A DNA stretch of 64,000 nt, taken from assembly GCF_006346395.1 (NCBI RefSeq), contig NZ_VDMS01000001.1, forward strand, positions 372,001 to 436,000, given 5' to 3'. The position numbers were made by a program, and so were the translations under genes. Below are positions 3,482 through 30,128 of the stretch, piece after piece (positions within the stretch are counted from its first letter, which is position 1; each line of letters starts with the position of its first letter). Below the pieces are notes generated by a model. The model was given only the letters and a program-made list of their open reading frames with translations, was not told where the DNA came from and made no database searches. This stretch comes from Nocardioides plantarum. Lineage in GTDB: Bacteria > Actinomycetota > Actinomycetes > Propionibacteriales > Nocardioidaceae.

Positions 3482-3733
3482 CTGGTCTCCTCCCGGCGTC
3501 GCGTGGACGCATGCTCTCCCGGCCACGGGCGGGGCAGGGACGGGATCTGGGCGACTTCCCCACAATTGGGGACGGCGCGGCGCCGGGGATCCGGTCACAC
3601 TGGCGGGGCGAGGAAACGCCTGCGGCAAGCAGCCGGATGACGTAGCCTCGACGGGCGGTCAGACCGGAGCTGCGAATCAATACCACGGCGCGCGTCTGAT
3701 CAGCGCACGGGGTAGGTGGTCGGGGGGCGATGG

Positions 3734-4492
3734 ATGGATCGTGAGCTGAGCTGTTCGGTGCGCGTCCTGGGGGGACTCGAGGTGACCCGTGCCGATGGCA
3801 CGGGCGTCGAGCCCAGCGCGTGGGGCACCAGCAAGACCATGGACCTGCTGCGGATCCTCGCCCTCGAGCAGGGCCGCGCCATCCGGTCGAGCACCCTGGT
3901 GGGACTGCTCTGGCCGGACGTCCCACCCGAGCGCGGGCGAGGAAGCCTGCGTACAGCGGCCAGCCGCATCCGGGTGGCGATCGGAGCCGACTGCGTGGCC
4001 CGCCGGCACGGCGAGCTCCTGCTCGTCAACGCGACCGTGGACGTCAGCGAGCTGCGCCAGCTCGCGGTCGCCGTCCGGCACGCGGCGGCTCGCCGCAGCT
4101 GGGACGAGACGATGCTGCTCACCGAGACGGCCGAGACCGTCTACCGCGGCGACTTCCAGGCCAGCAACGACGAGGCCGGCTGGGCCGTCCTCGCCCGCGA
4201 GGACCTGCGGCAGGTACGCCTGCGCATCCTCCTCGACGCCGCTCAGTGCGCGATCGAGACCGGCCGCTTCGTCGAGGCGCGCGACCTGGCCCAGACCGTC
4301 GTGACGGTCGACCCCGCCTCCGAGACCGCGCACCGCAACCTGATGCGCGCCCACGCCGAGCTGGGTGAGATCGGCCAGGCGATCCGGGTCTTCGAGGGCT
4401 ACCGCACGGTCCTGGCCGACGAGCTCGGCATCGACCCGTCCCGGGTCACCCGGGAGCTGCACCTGCGTCTGCTCCAGGACCGGACCATCTGA
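3734..4492 (+). CDS. BTAD-domain (SARP/AfsR-like) transcriptional regulator
   Basis: A 252-residue protein with an OmpR-type winged helix at about 5-90 (including LLRILALEQGRAIRSSTLV and LLWPD, typical of this class) followed by a bacterial transcriptional activator domain of TPR-like helices to the end (ETAHRNLMRAHAELGE, DELGIDPS). It has no ATPase or sensor domain, so it is a stand-alone SARP-like regulator. A GGGGGG run lies 6 bases before the chosen ATG; a GTG at 3716 is an alternative. It is divergent from the polysaccharide genes across 3482-3733, so it plausibly controls them. That link is inference from position. Confidence 0.78.
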   Translation: MDRELSCSVRVLGGLEVTRADGTGVEPSAWGTSKTMDLLRILALEQGRAIRSSTLVGLLWPDVPPERGRGSLRTAASRIRVAIGADCVARRHGELLLVNATVDVSELRQLAVAVRHAAARRSWDETMLLTETAETVYRGDFQASNDEAGWAVLAREDLRQVRLRILLDAAQCAIETGRFVEARDLAQTVVTVDPASETAHRNLMRAHAELGEIGQAIRVFEGYRTVLADELGIDPSRVTRELHLRLLQDRTI

Positions 4493-5288: not shown

Positions 5289-6128
5289 CGGGCCGGTGGC
5301 GACCGGCCTGTCGAGGTTGCTCCACTGCGACCACGACCCCGGGTAGAGCGCAGCCTCGAAGCCGGCGACGGCGAGAGCGGCGATCTCGTGGGCGGCGGTG
5401 ACGCCCGACCCGCAGTAGGCCGCCACGGGCGCGTCCGCGGTGACACCGAGAGCCTCGAACCGGGCCCGCAGCTCGTCGGCGGCGAGGAACGTCCCGTCTG
5501 CGGCGAGGTTGTCGGTCGTGGGAGCGCTGACGGCGCCCGGCACGTGGCCGGCCTTCGGGTCGATCGGCTCGACCTCGCCGCGGAACCGCTCCCCCGCGCG
5601 CGCGTCGAGCAGGACCCCGGCGAACGACGGGACAGCGTCGGCCTCGAGGACCGGCACGGCCCCGGCGCCGAGCACCACGTCGCCCGGCTCCGGCACGACG
5701 TCGTCGGTCGCCACGGGGCGCTCGGCCCAGGTCCACGCCGACCACGCCCCGTCGAGCAGACGCACGTCGTCGAACCCGGCCCATCGCAGCAGCCACCAGG
5801 CACGCGCCGCCGCGAGGCCGCCGTTGTCGTCGTAGGCCACGACGGTGCTCCCGGCGCGCACGCCCCAGCGGCGCGCAGCCGCCTCGAGGTCGGCCGGCGA
5901 CGGCAGCGGGTGCCGGCCCCGGGTCGGCTCGCCGGGCGCCGCGAGCTCCGCCTCGAGGTCGACGTAGACCGCCCCGGGGACGTGGCCGGTCAGGTAGGCG
6001 GCGTGACCCGGCGGTCCCCCCAGGGCCCAGCGGACGTCGAGCACGACGACGTGTCGGTCGTCGTCCGCGAGCAGGTCGGTCAGCTGGTCGGCCGTGACCA
6101 GCACGGAGTTGTCGGGCATGTCGGGCAT
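5286..6128 (-). CDS. Rhodanese-type sulfurtransferase (thiosulfate / 3-mercaptopyruvate)
   Basis: A 280-residue protein of two tandem rhodanese domains. The first has VVVLDVRWALGGPPGHAAY and GHVPGAVYVDLE; the second carries the active loop YCGSGVTA with its catalytic Cys, followed by LYPGSWSQWSN, a strong signature of the family. It transfers sulfane sulfur from thiosulfate or 3-mercaptopyruvate to a thiophilic acceptor. Two nearby ATGs (6128 and 6119) are possible starts, and neither has a clear ribosome site. The gene is divergent from the luciferase-like gene, the starts being only about 40 bases apart. Confidence 0.9.
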   Translation of the reverse strand: MPDMPDNSVLVTADQLTDLLADDDRHVVVLDVRWALGGPPGHAAYLTGHVPGAVYVDLEAELAAPGEPTRGRHPLPSPADLEAAARRWGVRAGSTVVAYDDNGGLAAARAWWLLRWAGFDDVRLLDGAWSAWTWAERPVATDDVVPEPGDVVLGAGAVPVLEADAVPSFAGVLLDARAGERFRGEVEPIDPKAGHVPGAVSAPTTDNLAADGTFLAADELRARFEALGVTADAPVAAYCGSGVTAAHEIAALAVAGFEAALYPGSWSQWSNLDRPVATGP

Positions 6129-6165
6129 GTCGACCAGTCTCGACCACCTGCGCGACCATGGCCAC

Positions 6166-7200
6166 GTGACGACCAGCCACCGCCCCCTGCGACGACTCGG
6201 GTTCCTGACCATCGGGCTCTTCGACCCCGCCGACCCGGGTCCCGGCCACGAGTCGGTGCTCTCGATCATCGAGCTCGGCGAGCGCCTCGGGTTCGACAGC
6301 GCGTGGCTGCGACACCGCCACCTGCAGCACGGCATCTCCTCACCGCTGCCGGTGTTGGCGGCTGCCTCCCAGCGCACCAGCCGGATAGAGATCGGCACCG
6401 CGGTGACCCCGCTCGGCTGGGAGAACCCGCTGCGCCTGGCCGAGGACCTCGCCACGGTCGACGTCCTGTCCGGCGGGCGGCTCAACCCTGGTCTCAGCGT
6501 CGGGCCGCCGATGCACCTCGACGACGTCAAGGGCGCGCTCTACCCCGACACCGCCGAGCTCGAGGACTTCACCTACGGCCGCGTCGAGCGGCTCCTGCGC
6601 CTGGTGCGGGGCGAGCCGGCCAGCTCGTTCTCCGGCGTCCAGGGGATCGAGACGTTCTCCGAACGCGTGGAGCCGCACTCCCCCGGCCTGGCGTCGCGAC
6701 TGTGGTACGGCGCCGCCAGCACCCGCTCCGCGCAGTGGGCCGGGGAGCAGGGCCTCAACCTGCTGACCAGCAGCGTGGTCAAGGCCGAGTGGGCCGAGGG
6801 CGAGGAGCCGCTCGACTTCGCCGAGATCCAGCGCGGCCAGATCGAGACGTTCCGCGCGCACCACCCCCTCGGCGCCGCGGCCCGTGTCTCCCAGGGCCTC
6901 GTGGTCGTCCCGACCGACTCGGCCACGCCCGACCAGCGTCGGCGGTACGCCGACTACGCCGCGTCGCGCCTGACCCGCACCGCGACCCCGCAAGGACCGG
7001 GGCGGCTGATGTTCGCGCCCGACCTCGTCGGTCCCAGCGACGAGCTCGCCGAGCGCCTGCGCGCCCACGCGGGCTTCCGCGAGGTCGACGAGGTGGCCGT
7101 CGCGCTGCCGTTCACGTTCGGGCACGACGACTACGTGCAGATGCTCACCGACCTGGCGACGCGTCTCGGTCCCGCGCTGGGCTGGTCGCCGGCTGGCTGA
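6166..7200 (+). CDS. Luciferase-like (LLM class) flavin-dependent oxidoreductase
   Basis: About 344 residues with the bacterial luciferase-like TIM-barrel pattern: RLGFLTIGLFD at the start, ERLGFDSAWLRHRH, IEIGTAVTPLGWENPLRLAED and DVLSGGRLNPGLSVG. These enzymes use reduced flavin (FMNH2 or F420H2) to oxidise small substrates. I chose GTG 6166, but in-frame ATGs at 6118 and 6127 overlap the divergent sulfurtransferase start. The 3' end overlaps the convergent GNAT gene by 56 bases. The substrate is not predictable. Confidence 0.82.
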   Translation: MTTSHRPLRRLGFLTIGLFDPADPGPGHESVLSIIELGERLGFDSAWLRHRHLQHGISSPLPVLAAASQRTSRIEIGTAVTPLGWENPLRLAEDLATVDVLSGGRLNPGLSVGPPMHLDDVKGALYPDTAELEDFTYGRVERLLRLVRGEPASSFSGVQGIETFSERVEPHSPGLASRLWYGAASTRSAQWAGEQGLNLLTSSVVKAEWAEGEEPLDFAEIQRGQIETFRAHHPLGAAARVSQGLVVVPTDSATPDQRRRYADYAASRLTRTATPQGPGRLMFAPDLVGPSDELAERLRAHAGFREVDEVAVALPFTFGHDDYVQMLTDLATRLGPALGWSPAG

Positions 7201-8329
7201 TCGGCCGCGTGAGCTCGTGGACACAGGTCGCAGCGGTCGGCCGGTAGCCGAGTGCCTCGTACAAGTGCAGCGCCCCGGAGGCGTTGTCGGCGTCCACCCC
7301 CAGGCCGGCCGCGTCGAGGCCGGCCGCCGCGAAGCGACGCATCGACTCGGCCAGCAGCGCCGAGCCGATCCTCCGCCCGCGGTGGCTGGCCGCGACGGCG
7401 AGCTCGTCGGTGTAGCCCTCGGTGTAGCCCTGCACCGCCCAGTCCTGCTCCCACGCGCAGTTGATCGCGGAGCCCACGACGGCGCCGGTCTCCTCGTCGA
7501 GCGCGAGCACGCTCCAGTCGGCCCGGAAGGCGTGCGAGCCCACGTGCTCCGCCCACATCTCCTCAGTCCGGTCGACGTGGCCCCAGTGGTCGCGGAAGGC
7601 GAGATCGACGAACCGGTGCAGCTCGGGCCCCCGCGTCGGGTCCCAGCCGACGAGCCGCACCCCCGGCACGACAGGACCCGACGTCCCCGGGTCGATGTCG
7701 TCGAGGCGGCGCGACAGCTCGAAGAAGAACCGCTCGACCACGAGCCCGTGCCGCGTCGCCAGGTCGCGTACGTCGTCCTGCCCGGTCGGGGCGTAGAGGC
7801 GCAGCACGAGCGGGCCATAGTCGTCCTCGCGCGACGCGGCGTCCCAGGCGAGCCCGTGGGCGAGCTGCCAGCGCAGCACCGCCCGGCCGATGCCCTGTCC
7901 GCGGCGGTCGGGCCGCACGGCACCCCCGAGGTGCACCCCGCGGCGCTCGGTCACGGCCCGGTTGCACCCGGACCACGCCACGGCCACCGCCGCCCCCGCC
8001 TCGTCGCGCCCGAGCAGGGTGTCCTCGTCGGGCCGCGAGCGCGGGGAGTCCCAGTACTCCTCGAGGTCGGCCAACGACTGCCGCTCGGGGTTGGCGTCGT
8101 ACGTCTCGCACTCGGCGTAGAGGGCGGCCACCTCCGGCAGGTCGTCACGCCCGAGCGGGCGCCAGGTCAGTCCGGGGAGGGCGTCGAGGTCGTCTCGGCA
8201 CTGTCGTTCGGCATGGGGATCGTCGAGGAGCACCTGGTGATCCTGGGTGCTCGACCACGGCGGGCACAACCCGATTGCCCGCACCTCGCGGGTCCGGGTC
8301 GCGGTCCGCGTCGGCGTCGGCGTCGCCAC
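7145..8329 (-). CDS. GNAT N-acetyltransferase with two tandem GNAT domains
   Basis: A 394-residue protein. Each half has the acetyl-CoA pyrophosphate-binding signature: RPDRRGQGIGRAVLRW in the first and SHRGRRIGSALL in the second, the latter followed by GLGVDADNASGALHLYEALGY. The fold and length resemble mycothiol-synthase-like double GNATs, but the acceptor is unknown. A GGAGG precedes the GTG at 8329 by about 5 bases. The 3' end overlaps the convergent luciferase-like gene. Confidence 0.85.
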   Translation of the reverse strand: MATPTPTRTATRTREVRAIGLCPPWSSTQDHQVLLDDPHAERQCRDDLDALPGLTWRPLGRDDLPEVAALYAECETYDANPERQSLADLEEYWDSPRSRPDEDTLLGRDEAGAAVAVAWSGCNRAVTERRGVHLGGAVRPDRRGQGIGRAVLRWQLAHGLAWDAASREDDYGPLVLRLYAPTGQDDVRDLATRHGLVVERFFFELSRRLDDIDPGTSGPVVPGVRLVGWDPTRGPELHRFVDLAFRDHWGHVDRTEEMWAEHVGSHAFRADWSVLALDEETGAVVGSAINCAWEQDWAVQGYTEGYTDELAVAASHRGRRIGSALLAESMRRFAAAGLDAAGLGVDADNASGALHLYEALGYRPTAATCVHELTRPISQPATSPARDRDASPGR

Positions 8330-8379
8330 CGTCCCTCCGAGACGACCTCGACTCTTAGATCCGGCTCATGACCCCTCGC

Positions 8380-8385
8380 TACCGT
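8380..8385 (+). promoter_or_regulatory. -10 hexamer TACCGT, leaderless promoter of the 47-aa gene
   Basis: TACCGT ends six bases before the ATG at 8392, which puts the expected transcription start at the start codon itself. Confidence 0.5.
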
Positions 8386-8391
8386 TCGGGC

Positions 8392-8535
8392 ATGAGCCTG
8401 TTGAGCAAGCTGACCAAGACCGGGATCGCCGCCAAGGCGATCAGCGAGGCCCGCAAGCCCGAGAACCAGGCGAAGGCGAAGGCCGCGCTGCAGAAGCTGA
8501 AGGACAAGCGCAAGCCGCGTCCGCAGGCCCGGTGA
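8392..8535 (+). CDS. Very basic 47-aa protein, coupled to trpF
   Basis: Forty-seven codons from ATG 8392; the product is rich in Lys, Ala and Gln (KLTKTGIAAKAISEARK near the start, KLKDKRKPRPQAR at the end). It is probably one long amphipathic helix with a basic tail. Its TGA overlaps the trpF start (GTGA, 8532-8535), so trpF translation likely depends on it. No known domain is recognised. Good third-position G+C, a well-placed -10 element and the 4-base overlap support a real gene. Confidence 0.7.
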   Translation: MSLLSKLTKTGIAAKAISEARKPENQAKAKAALQKLKDKRKPRPQAR

Positions 8536-9134
8536 CGTTCGTCAAGATCTGCGGCCTGAGCACCCCCGCCGACGTCGACGCCGCGGTCGAGGCCGGCGCC
8601 GACGCGGTCGGGTTCGTGATGAGCAGCCGCAGCCCGCGCCACGTCACGCCCGCGCTGGCCACGACGCTCGTCGACCACGTGGCCGGCCGGGCGCTCACGG
8701 TCCTGGTGACCAACGACCTGCCCGTCGACGAGGCGGTGACCCAGGCCGTCGCGACCGGTGTCGACGTCCTGCAGCTGCACGGTCCGGCGTACGACGCAGG
8801 CGCGTTCGCCGTCGCCGCCGAGGCGGGCGTCCGCACCTGGCGGGCCACGTCGCTCGCGCAGGATCCGCACCCCCGCACGGGCAGCCACGGCGAGGACGCG
8901 CTGCTGCTCGACTCCCCCGTGCCGGGCTCGGGCCACCGGTGGTCCGCCGCCGACCTCACCACGCGGCCGACCGGGCGGTGGCTGCTCGCCGGCGGGCTCG
9001 ACCCGGACAACGTCGCGGCGGCGGTCGCCGAGCTGGCGCCGTGGGGCGTCGACGTCTCCAGCGGTGTCGAGAGCAGCCGCGGCGTCAAGGACCACACAGC
9101 AGTCCAGCGGTTCGTGGCCGCCGTCCGCGCCTGA
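8532..9134 (+). CDS. trpF: Phosphoribosylanthranilate isomerase
   Basis: A 200-residue protein beginning MTFVKICGLSTPADVDAAVE; KICG carries the catalytic Cys of TrpF. It continues with GADAVGFVMSSRSPRHV, VDVLQLHG, and ends with LAGGLDPDNVAAAV and GVDVSSGVESSRGVKD, the phosphate-binding region and catalytic Asp area. It converts N-(5-phosphoribosyl)anthranilate to CdRP in tryptophan synthesis. It stands alone, away from other trp genes, and starts with GTG overlapping the upstream 47-aa gene. The frame stays open upstream to 8247, but the GTG is the start that matches the family. Confidence 0.93.
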   Translation: MTFVKICGLSTPADVDAAVEAGADAVGFVMSSRSPRHVTPALATTLVDHVAGRALTVLVTNDLPVDEAVTQAVATGVDVLQLHGPAYDAGAFAVAAEAGVRTWRATSLAQDPHPRTGSHGEDALLLDSPVPGSGHRWSAADLTTRPTGRWLLAGGLDPDNVAAAVAELAPWGVDVSSGVESSRGVKDHTAVQRFVAAVRA

Positions 9135-9137
9135 GGC

Positions 9138-11529
<2,392 letters not shown>

Positions 11530-27220: not shown

Positions 27221-27556
27221 CTAGTGGACGGCGTCGTACGCCTCTCGCACCGCCGCAGGGATCCGGCCGCGCTCGGGCACGTCGTGCCCGTTGGACTGGG
27301 CCCACGCTCGGACCTCGGCAGCCGACGGCCCAGAACCAGAAGGAGCCTTCTTCTTGCCGGTGCTTGACTTGGTGACCTTCGTAGCCACGCTGAGGTACTT
27401 CTCGAGCGAGTTGTAGAACTTCTCTGCCTCGCCAGCGGTCAGGTCGATCGTGTAGTCAGTGCCGTCCCAACCGAACGAGACGGTCGGCTGATCGCTGTCG
27501 ACAATCTCCTTGCCGGACAGGTCGGAGACATAGGTAATGGTGGTGTTCTGTGCCAT
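27221..27556 (-). CDS. lsr2: Lsr2-family nucleoid-associated protein
   Basis: About 111 residues. The N-terminal dimerisation part has TYVSDLSGKEI, VSFGWDGTDYTIDLT; the C-terminal DNA-binding part has AEVRAWAQSNGHDVPERGRI followed by PAAV, where RGRI corresponds to the AT-hook-like RGR of Lsr2. Lsr2 binds A+T-rich minor grooves and silences foreign genes in Actinobacteria. This copy sits inside a relatively A+T-rich segment, which suggests it is an accessory paralogue silencing its own neighbourhood. ATG 27562 is an alternative start; no good ribosome site is seen. Confidence 0.85.
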   Translation of the reverse strand: MAQNTTITYVSDLSGKEIVDSDQPTVSFGWDGTDYTIDLTAGEAEKFYNSLEKYLSVATKVTKSSTGKKKAPSGSGPSAAEVRAWAQSNGHDVPERGRIPAAVREAYDAVH

Positions 27557-27794
27557 GCACATAATGAAAGCACATCTCCTCGCAGCTGGTTATCGCAGGT
27601 CGGCCGACGGTGATTGGATACCCGCCCGGGCCGCGACCCCACAGGGTTAGGCCAGAGCTGAGTCAGGGGCTTACGACGTGATACTCCTGAGCATGATTTG
27701 CTTTGACAAGTTTCATATTGATCGCTCTTGTCACCCACGAGGTCGTGTGGAAGCCTGACGCCATCTCGGGCTCCTTCCACGATTGGACGACGCC

Positions 27795-28364
27795 ATGTCG
27801 ATCTCCGCGATGACGACCCTGAGCCTGGTGCGAGACACCAGGAACCCGATGAAGTCCGACATCGGCGCGCAGCCGCCCGCCGGCCCCCAGGCTCCGTCGG
27901 ATCCACCGGGAGACGGAGGAAAGAAGCCCTCGCTCCCCGAGCTGCTCGCCAAAAGCCTGCCGACGGAGATCATCGTCCCCTACACGGCATTCATCGCAGT
28001 CCTTGCCCAACTCACGAAGCCCACTGCTGACGACCCCCACCCCGACCAATTGCTGCTCTACCGCTGGCTTGGGTTTGCGGTGCTGGTGGGTGGCACGGCA
28101 GCTCTCAGCTACGTCTCGTACCGCAAGAAGGCGACTGCTGCGAAGCAGCCCAGCCAAGCCAAGGACATCGGCTCGCCGCTGGTCGAGGCGTCCGCCTTGA
28201 CCGTGTCAGCGATCGCGTGGGGGCTGTCGATTCCCGAGTCGCCTCTCCTGACCAAGCTGGATGGCGTCGAAGGCGTGGTCTCGCTCGCGCTGGTCTCCCT
28301 GGTCGCCCTGGTGATCAACGCAGTCTTGGCGAAGACGATGACGACGGCGAAGAGTGGGGGCTGA
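27795..28364 (+). CDS. Membrane protein of unknown function
   Basis: About 189 residues: a polar Pro/Gly-rich N-terminal 60, then hydrophobic segments at about 65-80, 95-115, 140-160 and 165-182, separated by a basic loop (SYRKKATAAKQPSQAKD). Four helices are likely. No known family is recognised. It is divergent from lsr2 and in the atypical segment. A TTG at 27783 is an alternative start. Confidence 0.6.
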   Translation: MSISAMTTLSLVRDTRNPMKSDIGAQPPAGPQAPSDPPGDGGKKPSLPELLAKSLPTEIIVPYTAFIAVLAQLTKPTADDPHPDQLLLYRWLGFAVLVGGTAALSYVSYRKKATAAKQPSQAKDIGSPLVEASALTVSAIAWGLSIPESPLLTKLDGVEGVVSLALVSLVALVINAVLAKTMTTAKSGG

Positions 28365-28450: not shown

Positions 28451-29269
28451 TCAGTGAATGAGCTGCGAGCAGTAGTAGATGGCCGGGTACGTCGCCAAGA
28501 ACGCCCACAAGAACGTGTTGAGACCCATGCAGATGGCAATGCCGACATGCATCAGGGCGCCAGCGATGAAGAAGGCGATCGCCGTAGGGCCACCGACCAG
28601 GGCCGCCGCGAGAAACGTGCACTCGAACGCCACGACTCCCCAGGTGAGGAGCTGTCCCAGTAGGGGCTTCGCGGCCAGCAACGCGGCCACATCGCGACGT
28701 CCGTAGGTCGAGGTGTTCACGATGGCCCCGACAGCTTCGCCACGGCGCCACGTGGGTGAGACCGCCTTGGCCACACCGGACGCGAGATAGGACAGGCACG
28801 ATTGTGCGGCGATGAACGCGATCGCCGCAGTGCCGGCGAAGGAGCCGACCGGGCTCCATGCGTAGACGGCCGTGGCGGTGACGATGATGAGCGACATCTG
28901 GTCGGAACCGTCGAGCCCGTAGGAATGACGAAAGCTCACCGCGAGGGACGTCAGCAGCAAGAGAGCCGCTCCGACGGGCGGGATCGAGCCGTCGACGACG
29001 ACGGCACACGCCACCCAGGCCGCTGACAGCAGTCTCAACCCGAGCAAGAACCAGACTCCTGGCGTATCCAGGAGCCGGTTGCCGATCCGCCACACCAGTG
29101 GTCGACGAACCAGGAATTGCCTCTCGCCAGCGATCGCCCACGAGTAGAGCCCGCCTGCGGCGTACGACCGATAGGTGGTCAAGAACTCCAGGCTGGCGAC
29201 ACCCACCCCCAGCGATCCCACGAGGGCGGTGAGCTGGAAGGCTTGGTCCAGGGTCAGGTACGAGCTCAT
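28451..29269 (-). CDS. HTTM-domain membrane protein (SdpB / vitamin K carboxylase-like)
   Basis: A 272-residue polytopic membrane protein. The stretch SFRHSYGLDGSDQMS, followed by a Tyr/Ser-Gly-Lys segment (CLSYLASGVAKAVSPTW) and later GALMHVGIAICMGLNTFLW, matches the HTTM family related to gamma-glutamyl carboxylase and to SdpB of the Bacillus sporulation-delaying-protein system. Its ATG overlaps the stop of the upstream partner by one base (TGATG), so the two are translated together. Last gene of the three-gene operon; probable role in maturation or export of the first gene's product, by analogy only. Confidence 0.7.
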   Translation of the reverse strand: MSSYLTLDQAFQLTALVGSLGVGVASLEFLTTYRSYAAGGLYSWAIAGERQFLVRRPLVWRIGNRLLDTPGVWFLLGLRLLSAAWVACAVVVDGSIPPVGAALLLLTSLAVSFRHSYGLDGSDQMSLIIVTATAVYAWSPVGSFAGTAAIAFIAAQSCLSYLASGVAKAVSPTWRRGEAVGAIVNTSTYGRRDVAALLAAKPLLGQLLTWGVVAFECTFLAAALVGGPTAIAFFIAGALMHVGIAICMGLNTFLWAFLATYPAIYYCSQLIH

Positions 29270-29793
29270 CAGGGGAGACCGTGCAGGCCCGAGTGCAGCA
29301 CGGTCCGCGGTGCTCGTGTGGTGTGAAATCCGAAGGTCTGCAGGACAGCGAACTGAGTGGCTACTGCCTCGCTGGCATGGCCGTCCGCGTTCGACACATA
29401 ATGCAGCAGGCCGATGTAGGGCAGGCTGAGCTGAAGCGTCTCGGGGTCTGAGCCGAGATTGCGGTAGGTGCGACTCAGGCTTCGCATGAAGTCCGATATC
29501 GCTTTCTGTCGGCGCTTTCCCGGATTCCATACACTGACGATCAACCGCCGCTCCCCAGGACTGTTGAGCTCGGACCACGGCGTCAAGCTCCCACCAGGGA
29601 GCTGATCGCGGTAGTAGAGGTGGTAGTCGCTGCGCGCCGGGTTGGGTGCGAAGAAGGTCCACCGGGGAATCAGTCCGAAGTAGTCCTTCCGTTTGAGCTT
29701 CTTGACAGCCGGCATCTGAAATTGATTGAGCGCCGAGACGATCAACCAGACCGAGAACGTGACGGCGACAGTCACGCTCCAGGCAGCGCTCAA
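29269..29793 (-). CDS. Single-pass membrane partner protein (SdpA/DUF5819-like)
   Basis: A 174-residue protein starting with TTG overlapping the stop of the preceding gene (TTGA). One N-terminal helix (SVTVAVTFSVWLIVSALNQF) is followed by FGLIPRWTFFAPNPARSDYH, resembling the W-x-FFxxNP/DP element of SdpA-type and DUF5819 proteins that accompany HTTM proteins. The remainder is a predicted extracytoplasmic domain with HYVSNADG near its end. The family call is tentative, resting on this motif, topology, size and gene order. Confidence 0.6.
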   Translation of the reverse strand: MSAAWSVTVAVTFSVWLIVSALNQFQMPAVKKLKRKDYFGLIPRWTFFAPNPARSDYHLYYRDQLPGGSLTPWSELNSPGERRLIVSVWNPGKRRQKAISDFMRSLSRTYRNLGSDPETLQLSLPYIGLLHYVSNADGHASEAVATQFAVLQTFGFHTTRAPRTVLHSGLHGLP

Positions 29794-30128
29794 CGGCGAA
29801 CGACTGCTGCTCGCCGGGCCGCGATCAGATCGCTCGCGGTCGGGTTGCTCGGGAGTCCCTGCGCGCTGGCCTTGAGCCTGCCCCGTGCCGTCGGTTGGTC
29901 GATGAGCTGCTCGGCCTCCGCCAGGATCGCCGCCTCCGCGATGTCCTCGGTGACTGCCTCGGCTTCGTCCGCAAAGTCGTCGATGTCGTTGCAGTCCTCG
30001 CAGCCGTGGAAGTCGTCGTCATTGCCCGGGGAGCTCTCGATGTCGCAATCCGGGCAGGCTTCAGACGCCATCCACACGCTTCCGGGGATGTCCGAGGTCA
30101 GTGCCTCGAGCTTGTTGTCAATGGTCAT
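29790..30128 (-). CDS. Acidic two-CxxC small protein, candidate precursor peptide
   Basis: A 112-residue protein with ATG 30128 after GGAG at 5 bases. It contains CPDC (25-28) and CEDC (43-46) 14 residues apart, a strongly acidic middle (about 29-75, many D/E) and a basic C-terminus (AARRAAVVRR). There is no signal peptide. It overlaps the SdpA-like gene by 4 bases and heads the operon, the place a precursor gene would occupy. It could equally be a zinc-binding accessory protein, since C-x2-C-x14-C-x2-C is a ribbon-like spacing. No homologous family is recognised. Confidence 0.7.
   Translation of the reverse strand: MTIDNKLEALTSDIPGSVWMASEACPDCDIESSPGNDDDFHGCEDCNDIDDFADEAEAVTEDIAEAAILAEAEQLIDQPTARGRLKASAQGLPSNPTASDLIAARRAAVVRR

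Follow-up and report, generated by a model that had tools for sequence, protein, structure and literature searches.

The window, a stretch of 64,000 nt from Nocardioides plantarum, contains a minus-strand operon of three overlapping genes, here designated g1, g2 and g3, which we read, with moderate confidence, as a tag-directed peptide-modification system built on a membrane protein pair of the LinL/LinG type, with the product of g1 as its cargo. Computational comparisons established that g2 and g3 are homologous to LinL and LinG, that g3 has a predicted fold like that of GGCX, the vitamin K-dependent gamma-glutamyl carboxylase of humans, with an aligned lysine, and that the cassette recurs in distant genomes with first genes ending in a similar C-terminal tail. 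What is new here is this first gene: the bodies of its counterparts are unrelated between lineages, and most of them end in a similar tail.

Operon organization and the acidic protein g1

The operon spans positions 28451-30128, with the genes in the order g1, g2, g3, and lies close to a gene for a putative silencer. The corresponding features are:

29790..30128, minus strand: g1, for an acidic protein of 112 aa that is proposed to be a substrate (precursor) or a docked partner; AGGAGA ribosome-binding site ahead of an ATG start
29991..30056, minus strand: CPDC...CEDC region of g1 (residues 25-46), from the sequence
29269..29793, minus strand: g2, encoding a 174-aa FAPNP protein (LinL-like, DUF5819-like) with a single membrane helix at the N terminus plus a soluble domain; TTG start
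28451..29269, minus strand: g3, encoding a 272-aa HTTM/LinG/SdpB-like membrane protein with a predicted GGCX membrane-domain fold
27221-27562, minus strand: Lsr2 gene (H-NS-like silencer), adjoining the low-GC stretch that includes the operon

The overlaps between g1 and g2 (TTGA) and between g2 and g3 (TGATG) are both present in the sequence, as stated in the first-pass annotation, which had described three coupled genes. Its description of g1 also agrees with the sequence: motifs CPDC (residues 25-28) and CEDC (residues 43-46) are separated by 14 residues, and an acidic stretch is followed by a basic tail, with 24 Asp/Glu and one Lys/Arg in the N-terminal 77 residues and seven Lys/Arg and one Asp/Glu in the last 35. 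The whole protein contains 10 Glu and 15 Asp, and its sequence reveals neither a signal peptide nor a hydrophobic segment. Two further proposals, that g1 occupies the position of a precursor gene and that its product does not resemble SdpC, were upheld, the former by the C-terminal tail that ties g1 to the g2/g3 pair through otherwise unrelated first genes, and the latter by comparison of the sequence with the description of SdpC (PMC6818787), since g1 lacks a signal peptide and a hydrophobic toxin domain.

The protein did not match any Pfam or NCBIfam family, and a search for homologs of its body in 150 genomes of the family and in plasmids returned the window's own genome as the sole match. 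In terms of sequence, g1 thus shares its tail, and not its body, with other first genes. The coding status of the operon genes is backed by their GC3 bias, and the possibility that g1 is a chance ORF was discarded because of its ribosome-binding site, GC3, overlap with g2 and tail.

The GC content of the operon is 64 %, versus 72 % for the window, which together with the neighboring Lsr2 gene suggests that the operon is part of an acquired, silenced island. Among the 150 genomes sampled from the family, matches to g3 were weak and limited to one other genus, with none in other genomes of the same genus, and a scan of viral contigs did not identify relatives. The operon includes no transporter or protease gene, and the eight neighboring genes tested belong to other families or to no family, with no immunity or transporter gene beside the operon. 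One of the nearby genes (27783-28364, plus strand), convergent with g3, codes for a 193-aa predicted membrane protein that matched no Pfam family and had no homolog in 60 other genomes of the genus.

Relationship of g2 and g3 to LinL/LinG, SdpA/SdpB and GGCX

The g2/g3 pair had been likened to SdpA/DUF5819 plus SdpB/HTTM. Its assignment to a peptide-maturation pair family stands, although the match is with LinL/LinG and the kinship to SdpA and SdpB is remote. The product of g2 reached DUF5819 below threshold (E 0.002), as did 4 of 20 g2-like proteins, all of them sub-threshold, and none of the 20 FAPNP homologs matched SdpA in NCBIfam. Likewise, g3 fell far below the curated cut-off of SdpB TIGR04033 (E 1.3e-6; 28.3 bits versus 178.4); SdpB was matched at E<=0.01 by 11 of the 18 g3-like proteins, with 1.3e-6 as the best value. 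Pfam HTTM (PF05090) was not reached by the g3 sequence and was matched by three of those 18 proteins. The earlier family labels were therefore close but loose: the HTTM/GGCX fold is predicted for g3, but DUF5819 and SdpB remain sub-threshold and Pfam HTTM is missed by sequence.

A search among plasmids turned up relatives of g3 in Streptomyces, Tsukamurella, Kocuria and others; their typical neighbors are genes for an alpha/beta hydrolase, a protein of ca. 180 aa carrying the g2 motif and short PVMATP peptides, or else lantibiotic dehydratase and LanC genes. The clusters from which the LinL and LinG profile groups were drawn contain PxxxTP (linaridin) precursors or lanthipeptide genes, PxxxTP being the linaridin cleavage motif. 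Profile-profile comparison with hhalign showed that the g2 and LinL groups (100 %, E 1.4e-38) and the g3 and LinG groups (E 8.2e-53) are homologous end to end; a C-terminal S-x-x-H is conserved in the g2 group and absent from the linaridin set. By sequence, the linaridin enzymes are thus closer to g2 and g3 than SdpA and SdpB are. In linaridins, LinL, an HTTM protein and an alpha/beta hydrolase are the suspected machinery for Thr dehydration (PMC9927463), and GrmL has been cited as indispensable and as a possible epimerase (PMC10373908).

The operon resembles the LinL/LinG(LinH) systems of cypemycin, grisemycin and corynaridin in having full-length homologs of both proteins, encoded by adjacent genes and linked to a ribosomal precursor; it differs in that the proposed recognition element is a C-terminal tail. 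The window thus contains a LinL homolog (g2) and an HTTM/LinG homolog (g3). However, a LinE alpha/beta hydrolase is absent from the cluster, as g3 ends at 272 aa without a hydrolase domain and none was found among the eight neighbors tested, and the PxxxTP motif is absent both from g1 and from any coding-like short ORF nearby on the operon strand. Membership among linaridins was rejected for lack of the hydrolase and the precursor motif. Membership in the SdpABC class was rejected for lack of three features, namely a match to SdpB at the curated cut-off, an SdpA partner and an SdpC-like precursor. The operon is, consequently, an unannotated variant of SdpABC/linaridin-type peptide maturation that belongs to neither class. 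Two of the loci recovered, L024 (551-7328, from a plasmid of Streptomyces atratus) and L036 (364-6881), are apparently lanthipeptide-linaridin hybrid clusters, in which HTTM, alpha/beta hydrolase and LinL-like genes adjoin those for a lantibiotic dehydratase and LanC.

Searches with sequence profiles against the PDB returned nothing useful for g2 or g3, and the predicted model of g2 had no fold match in this database. The link between g3 and GGCX came from the fold search only: the AlphaFold model of g3 (pLDDT 93, pTM 0.90) was compared with the PDB using Foldseek, and the nine best hits were all GGCX (probability 1.00), with the tenth hit at a probability of 0.10; E-values were about 1e-3 and TM-scores moderate (0.52-0.60). 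The g3 product is thus predicted to have the HTTM/GGCX membrane-domain fold. Two features of g3 align with GGCX by motif:

28739..28804, minus strand: g3 segment Q156-G177, in register with GGCX Q206-G226; invariant columns in homologs
28766-28768, minus strand: g3 K168, matching catalytic K218 of GGCX by motif register

The residues Q, Y, G, K, W and G coincide between g3 Q156-SCLSYLASGVAKAVSPTWRRG and the Q206 segment of GGCX, by motif and not by superposition, and K168 is invariant in 19 g3 homologs. K218 is the established base of GGCX, which deprotonates vitamin K hydroquinone, and its replacement by alanine abolishes catalysis leaving substrate binding unaffected (PMC12589487). The relation to GGCX proposed by the first-pass annotation for the third protein is supported at the level of the predicted fold, with g3 having in common with the GGCX/HTTM superfamily the modeled membrane fold and a lysine that would be equivalent to K218 from the motif.

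Substrate recognition by GGCX involves a propeptide and a luminal propeptide-binding domain. Unlike GGCX, g3 has no fused propeptide-binding domain, and lies below detection by Pfam HTTM; by analogy, g2, with one membrane helix and a soluble domain, may be a natural candidate for this role. A further difference would be orientation. Across homologs, the loops TM1-2 and TM5-6 of g3 and the segment right after the helix of g2 are rich in basic residues, which under the positive-inside rule suggests that the active side faces the cytoplasm, whereas that of GGCX is luminal. A cytoplasmic working face would also agree with the absence of a signal peptide from g1.

A C-terminal tail common to unrelated first genes

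A g3 profile run against 84,980 genomes yielded 20 loci, spread over Actinobacteria, Acidobacteria, Planctomycetes, Bacteroidetes, Proteobacteria and the haloarchaeal genus Haloferax. Loci L086, L088, L090 and L091 were added by further sampling of order and class, and resampling of the phylum with a better profile led again to the same genomes. The cassette occurs in six or more phyla, mostly tightly spaced: in most loci a first gene, a g2 homolog and a g3 homolog follow in sequence, with gaps of mostly a few dozen bases or with overlaps. Since this order recurs in many distant genomes, mostly with short gaps or overlaps, it is not due to chance. Locus L054 lacks a tailed first gene and has instead a P450 gene upstream.

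The body of the first gene is unrelated between lineages. A group with a common body of ca. 200-300 aa comprises L030, L046-L050, L052 (placed here by its ORF, not by body alignment), L053, L055, L057, L059 and L086, and these large-body proteins often end in cysteines and a hydrophobic stretch, reminiscent of the layout of SdpC. The other first genes code for proteins of 75-125 aa, a DIGD-repeat protein, a hydrophobic-repeat protein and a DCC1-like oxidoreductase. A similar tail, with the consensus [ST]xxELhxhRRxhL, is found at the end of most first genes, such as TARELVALRREIF, SLEQLVELRRRAV, SSRELADLRKAIL, SLDELILIRRALL and SLEGLLRLRSAIL. In the window it corresponds to:

29802..29840, minus strand: residues 97-109 of g1, TASDLIAARRAAV, the tail motif and proposed docking tag, from ranking with the tail profile

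An earlier, broader tail profile placed g1 in rank 2 of 1622, with hand-anchored training sequences that possibly biased the result. Because of this possible bias, the test was repeated with a profile trained on one homologous body family, the large-body group alone, keeping sequences with unrelated bodies out of the training. The C-terminal 35 residues of 12 first genes with other bodies, including g1, were then scored against 693 coding-like ORFs from the window's own genome. The tail of g1 scored above all 693 background ORFs (p=0.0014), and seven of the 12 held-out genes had p below 0.02, for a Fisher combined P of about 3e-11 over the 12 genes, or 1e-9 without the window gene. A second background of 939 ORFs from related loci agreed with this result. 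Scores were weak for four of the 12 (L056, L060, L062 and L088). By BLAST, no test gene had a body similar to the large-body family, and matches among the test genes themselves were few, with L062/L063 being clear and L063/L064 and L088/L090 marginal. The evidence for the tail of g1 taken by itself is of p about 0.001, and becomes strong only when combined with the other loci. Pairs of the g2/g3 type probably grip their substrate by this tail in order to modify it.

Possible mechanism and alternative explanations

We propose that g2 (LinL-like) and g3 (LinG/HTTM-like) would form a membrane enzyme, with its working face and soluble domain in the cytoplasm. The g1 protein, made together with them, would dock through its C-terminal tail, TASDLIAARRAAV, which is basic and probably helical, and so offer its acidic N-terminal part, with the cysteines, to the active site. 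Lys168 of g3, the equivalent of Lys218 of GGCX, would there start a proton-abstraction chemistry on the substrate, and g1, once modified, might then be released or exported, either whole or as a fragment. Going by family resemblance only, the likeliest outcome by analogy with linaridins would be dehydration or epimerisation, with carboxylation of Glu as a possibility. Complex formation, docking by the tail and the identity of the modified protein are what we infer from the comparisons above, and the role of g1 as substrate would be likelier than that of redox partner.

The latter, an unlikely alternative, supposes that g1 is a thiol or metal redox partner, docked by its tail and moving electrons for a g2/g3 enzyme that acts on another molecule. 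It would account for the two CxxC motifs, and is kept open by the first gene of the Paraburkholderia locus L064 (3650-4438), which codes for a DCC1-like thiol-disulfide oxidoreductase (Pfam E 3e-30) with a tail like those of other first genes, such that the tail may mark partners and not substrates. Nevertheless, g1 matches no redox family, and most other first genes lack CxxC and have instead hydrophobic, Cys-bearing segments like antimicrobial cores. These segments are missing from g1, which counts against the substrate reading, as does the lack of a close body homolog that would show constrained residues. The reading is further weakened by the loci that fit it poorly (the weak tails of L056, L060, L062 and L088, and the P450 gene of L054), by the absence of LinE and of a transporter or protease gene from the operon, and by the moderate Foldseek scores.

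The Cys and hydrophobic stretches in many first genes of relatives are, in turn, a point of likeness with SdpABC/YitPOM of Bacillus subtilis, which also consists of two membrane proteins and a variable precursor. In that system the SdpC toxin corresponds to C141-S182 and SdpC homologs have variable cores (PMC6818787), as do the first genes here, and g3 has sub-threshold similarity to SdpB. Nonetheless, a true SdpABC-type toxin system, in which the pair cleaves g1 to a membrane-active antimicrobial peptide, is highly unlikely, given that the precursor gene comes at the front and not at the end, that g1 has neither a signal peptide nor a hydrophobic segment, that SdpA is not matched and that no immunity or transporter gene was found beside the operon. 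Gamma-carboxylation of the Glu residues of g1, which would produce a bacterial Gla-like protein for binding to metals or the cell surface, is speculation with a very slim chance of being correct. It would be in line with the predicted GGCX fold and aligned catalytic lysine of g3, and with the acidic composition of g1, whose tail could act as a GGCX propeptide; but Glu is not abundant in other first genes, the propeptide-binding domain is missing from g3, the Asn/His residues that bind Glu were not identified in it, and the reactions associated with its LinL/LinG relatives are dehydration and epimerisation, not carboxylation. A wider conjecture, which we regard as decidedly doubtful, is that of a widespread and unnamed two-subunit enzyme with a GGCX fold facing the cytoplasm, possibly using menaquinol, that modifies structurally unrelated proteins through a transferable C-terminal tag, its cargo here being a Gla-like acidic two-CxxC protein.

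The favored reading, a tag-directed modification of g1, joins SDP toxins, linaridins and the vitamin K carboxylase, lines that are usually treated apart. As a testable recognition rule seen on unrelated cargo proteins from different phyla, the tail would make it possible to mine genomes for new modified peptides and to test directly the chemistry of the LinL/HTTM pair, an open question in linaridin biosynthesis. It might also serve as a portable tag for modifying peptides.

The surroundings of the pair vary among loci. In L062 (3227-4401) and L063 (26-1298), a gene that appears HPr-kinase-like by eye is followed by one for a 90-aa protein with a partial tail and then by the g2/g3 pair. The first gene before the pair in L056 (Acidicapsa, 3714-4409) codes for a long repeat protein of the DIGD/GEI type. 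In L039 (from a Nitriliruptoraceae MAG, 5485-9484), the pair is flanked by several proteins with a similar, leader-like N-terminal domain, which suggests that they are multiple precursors.
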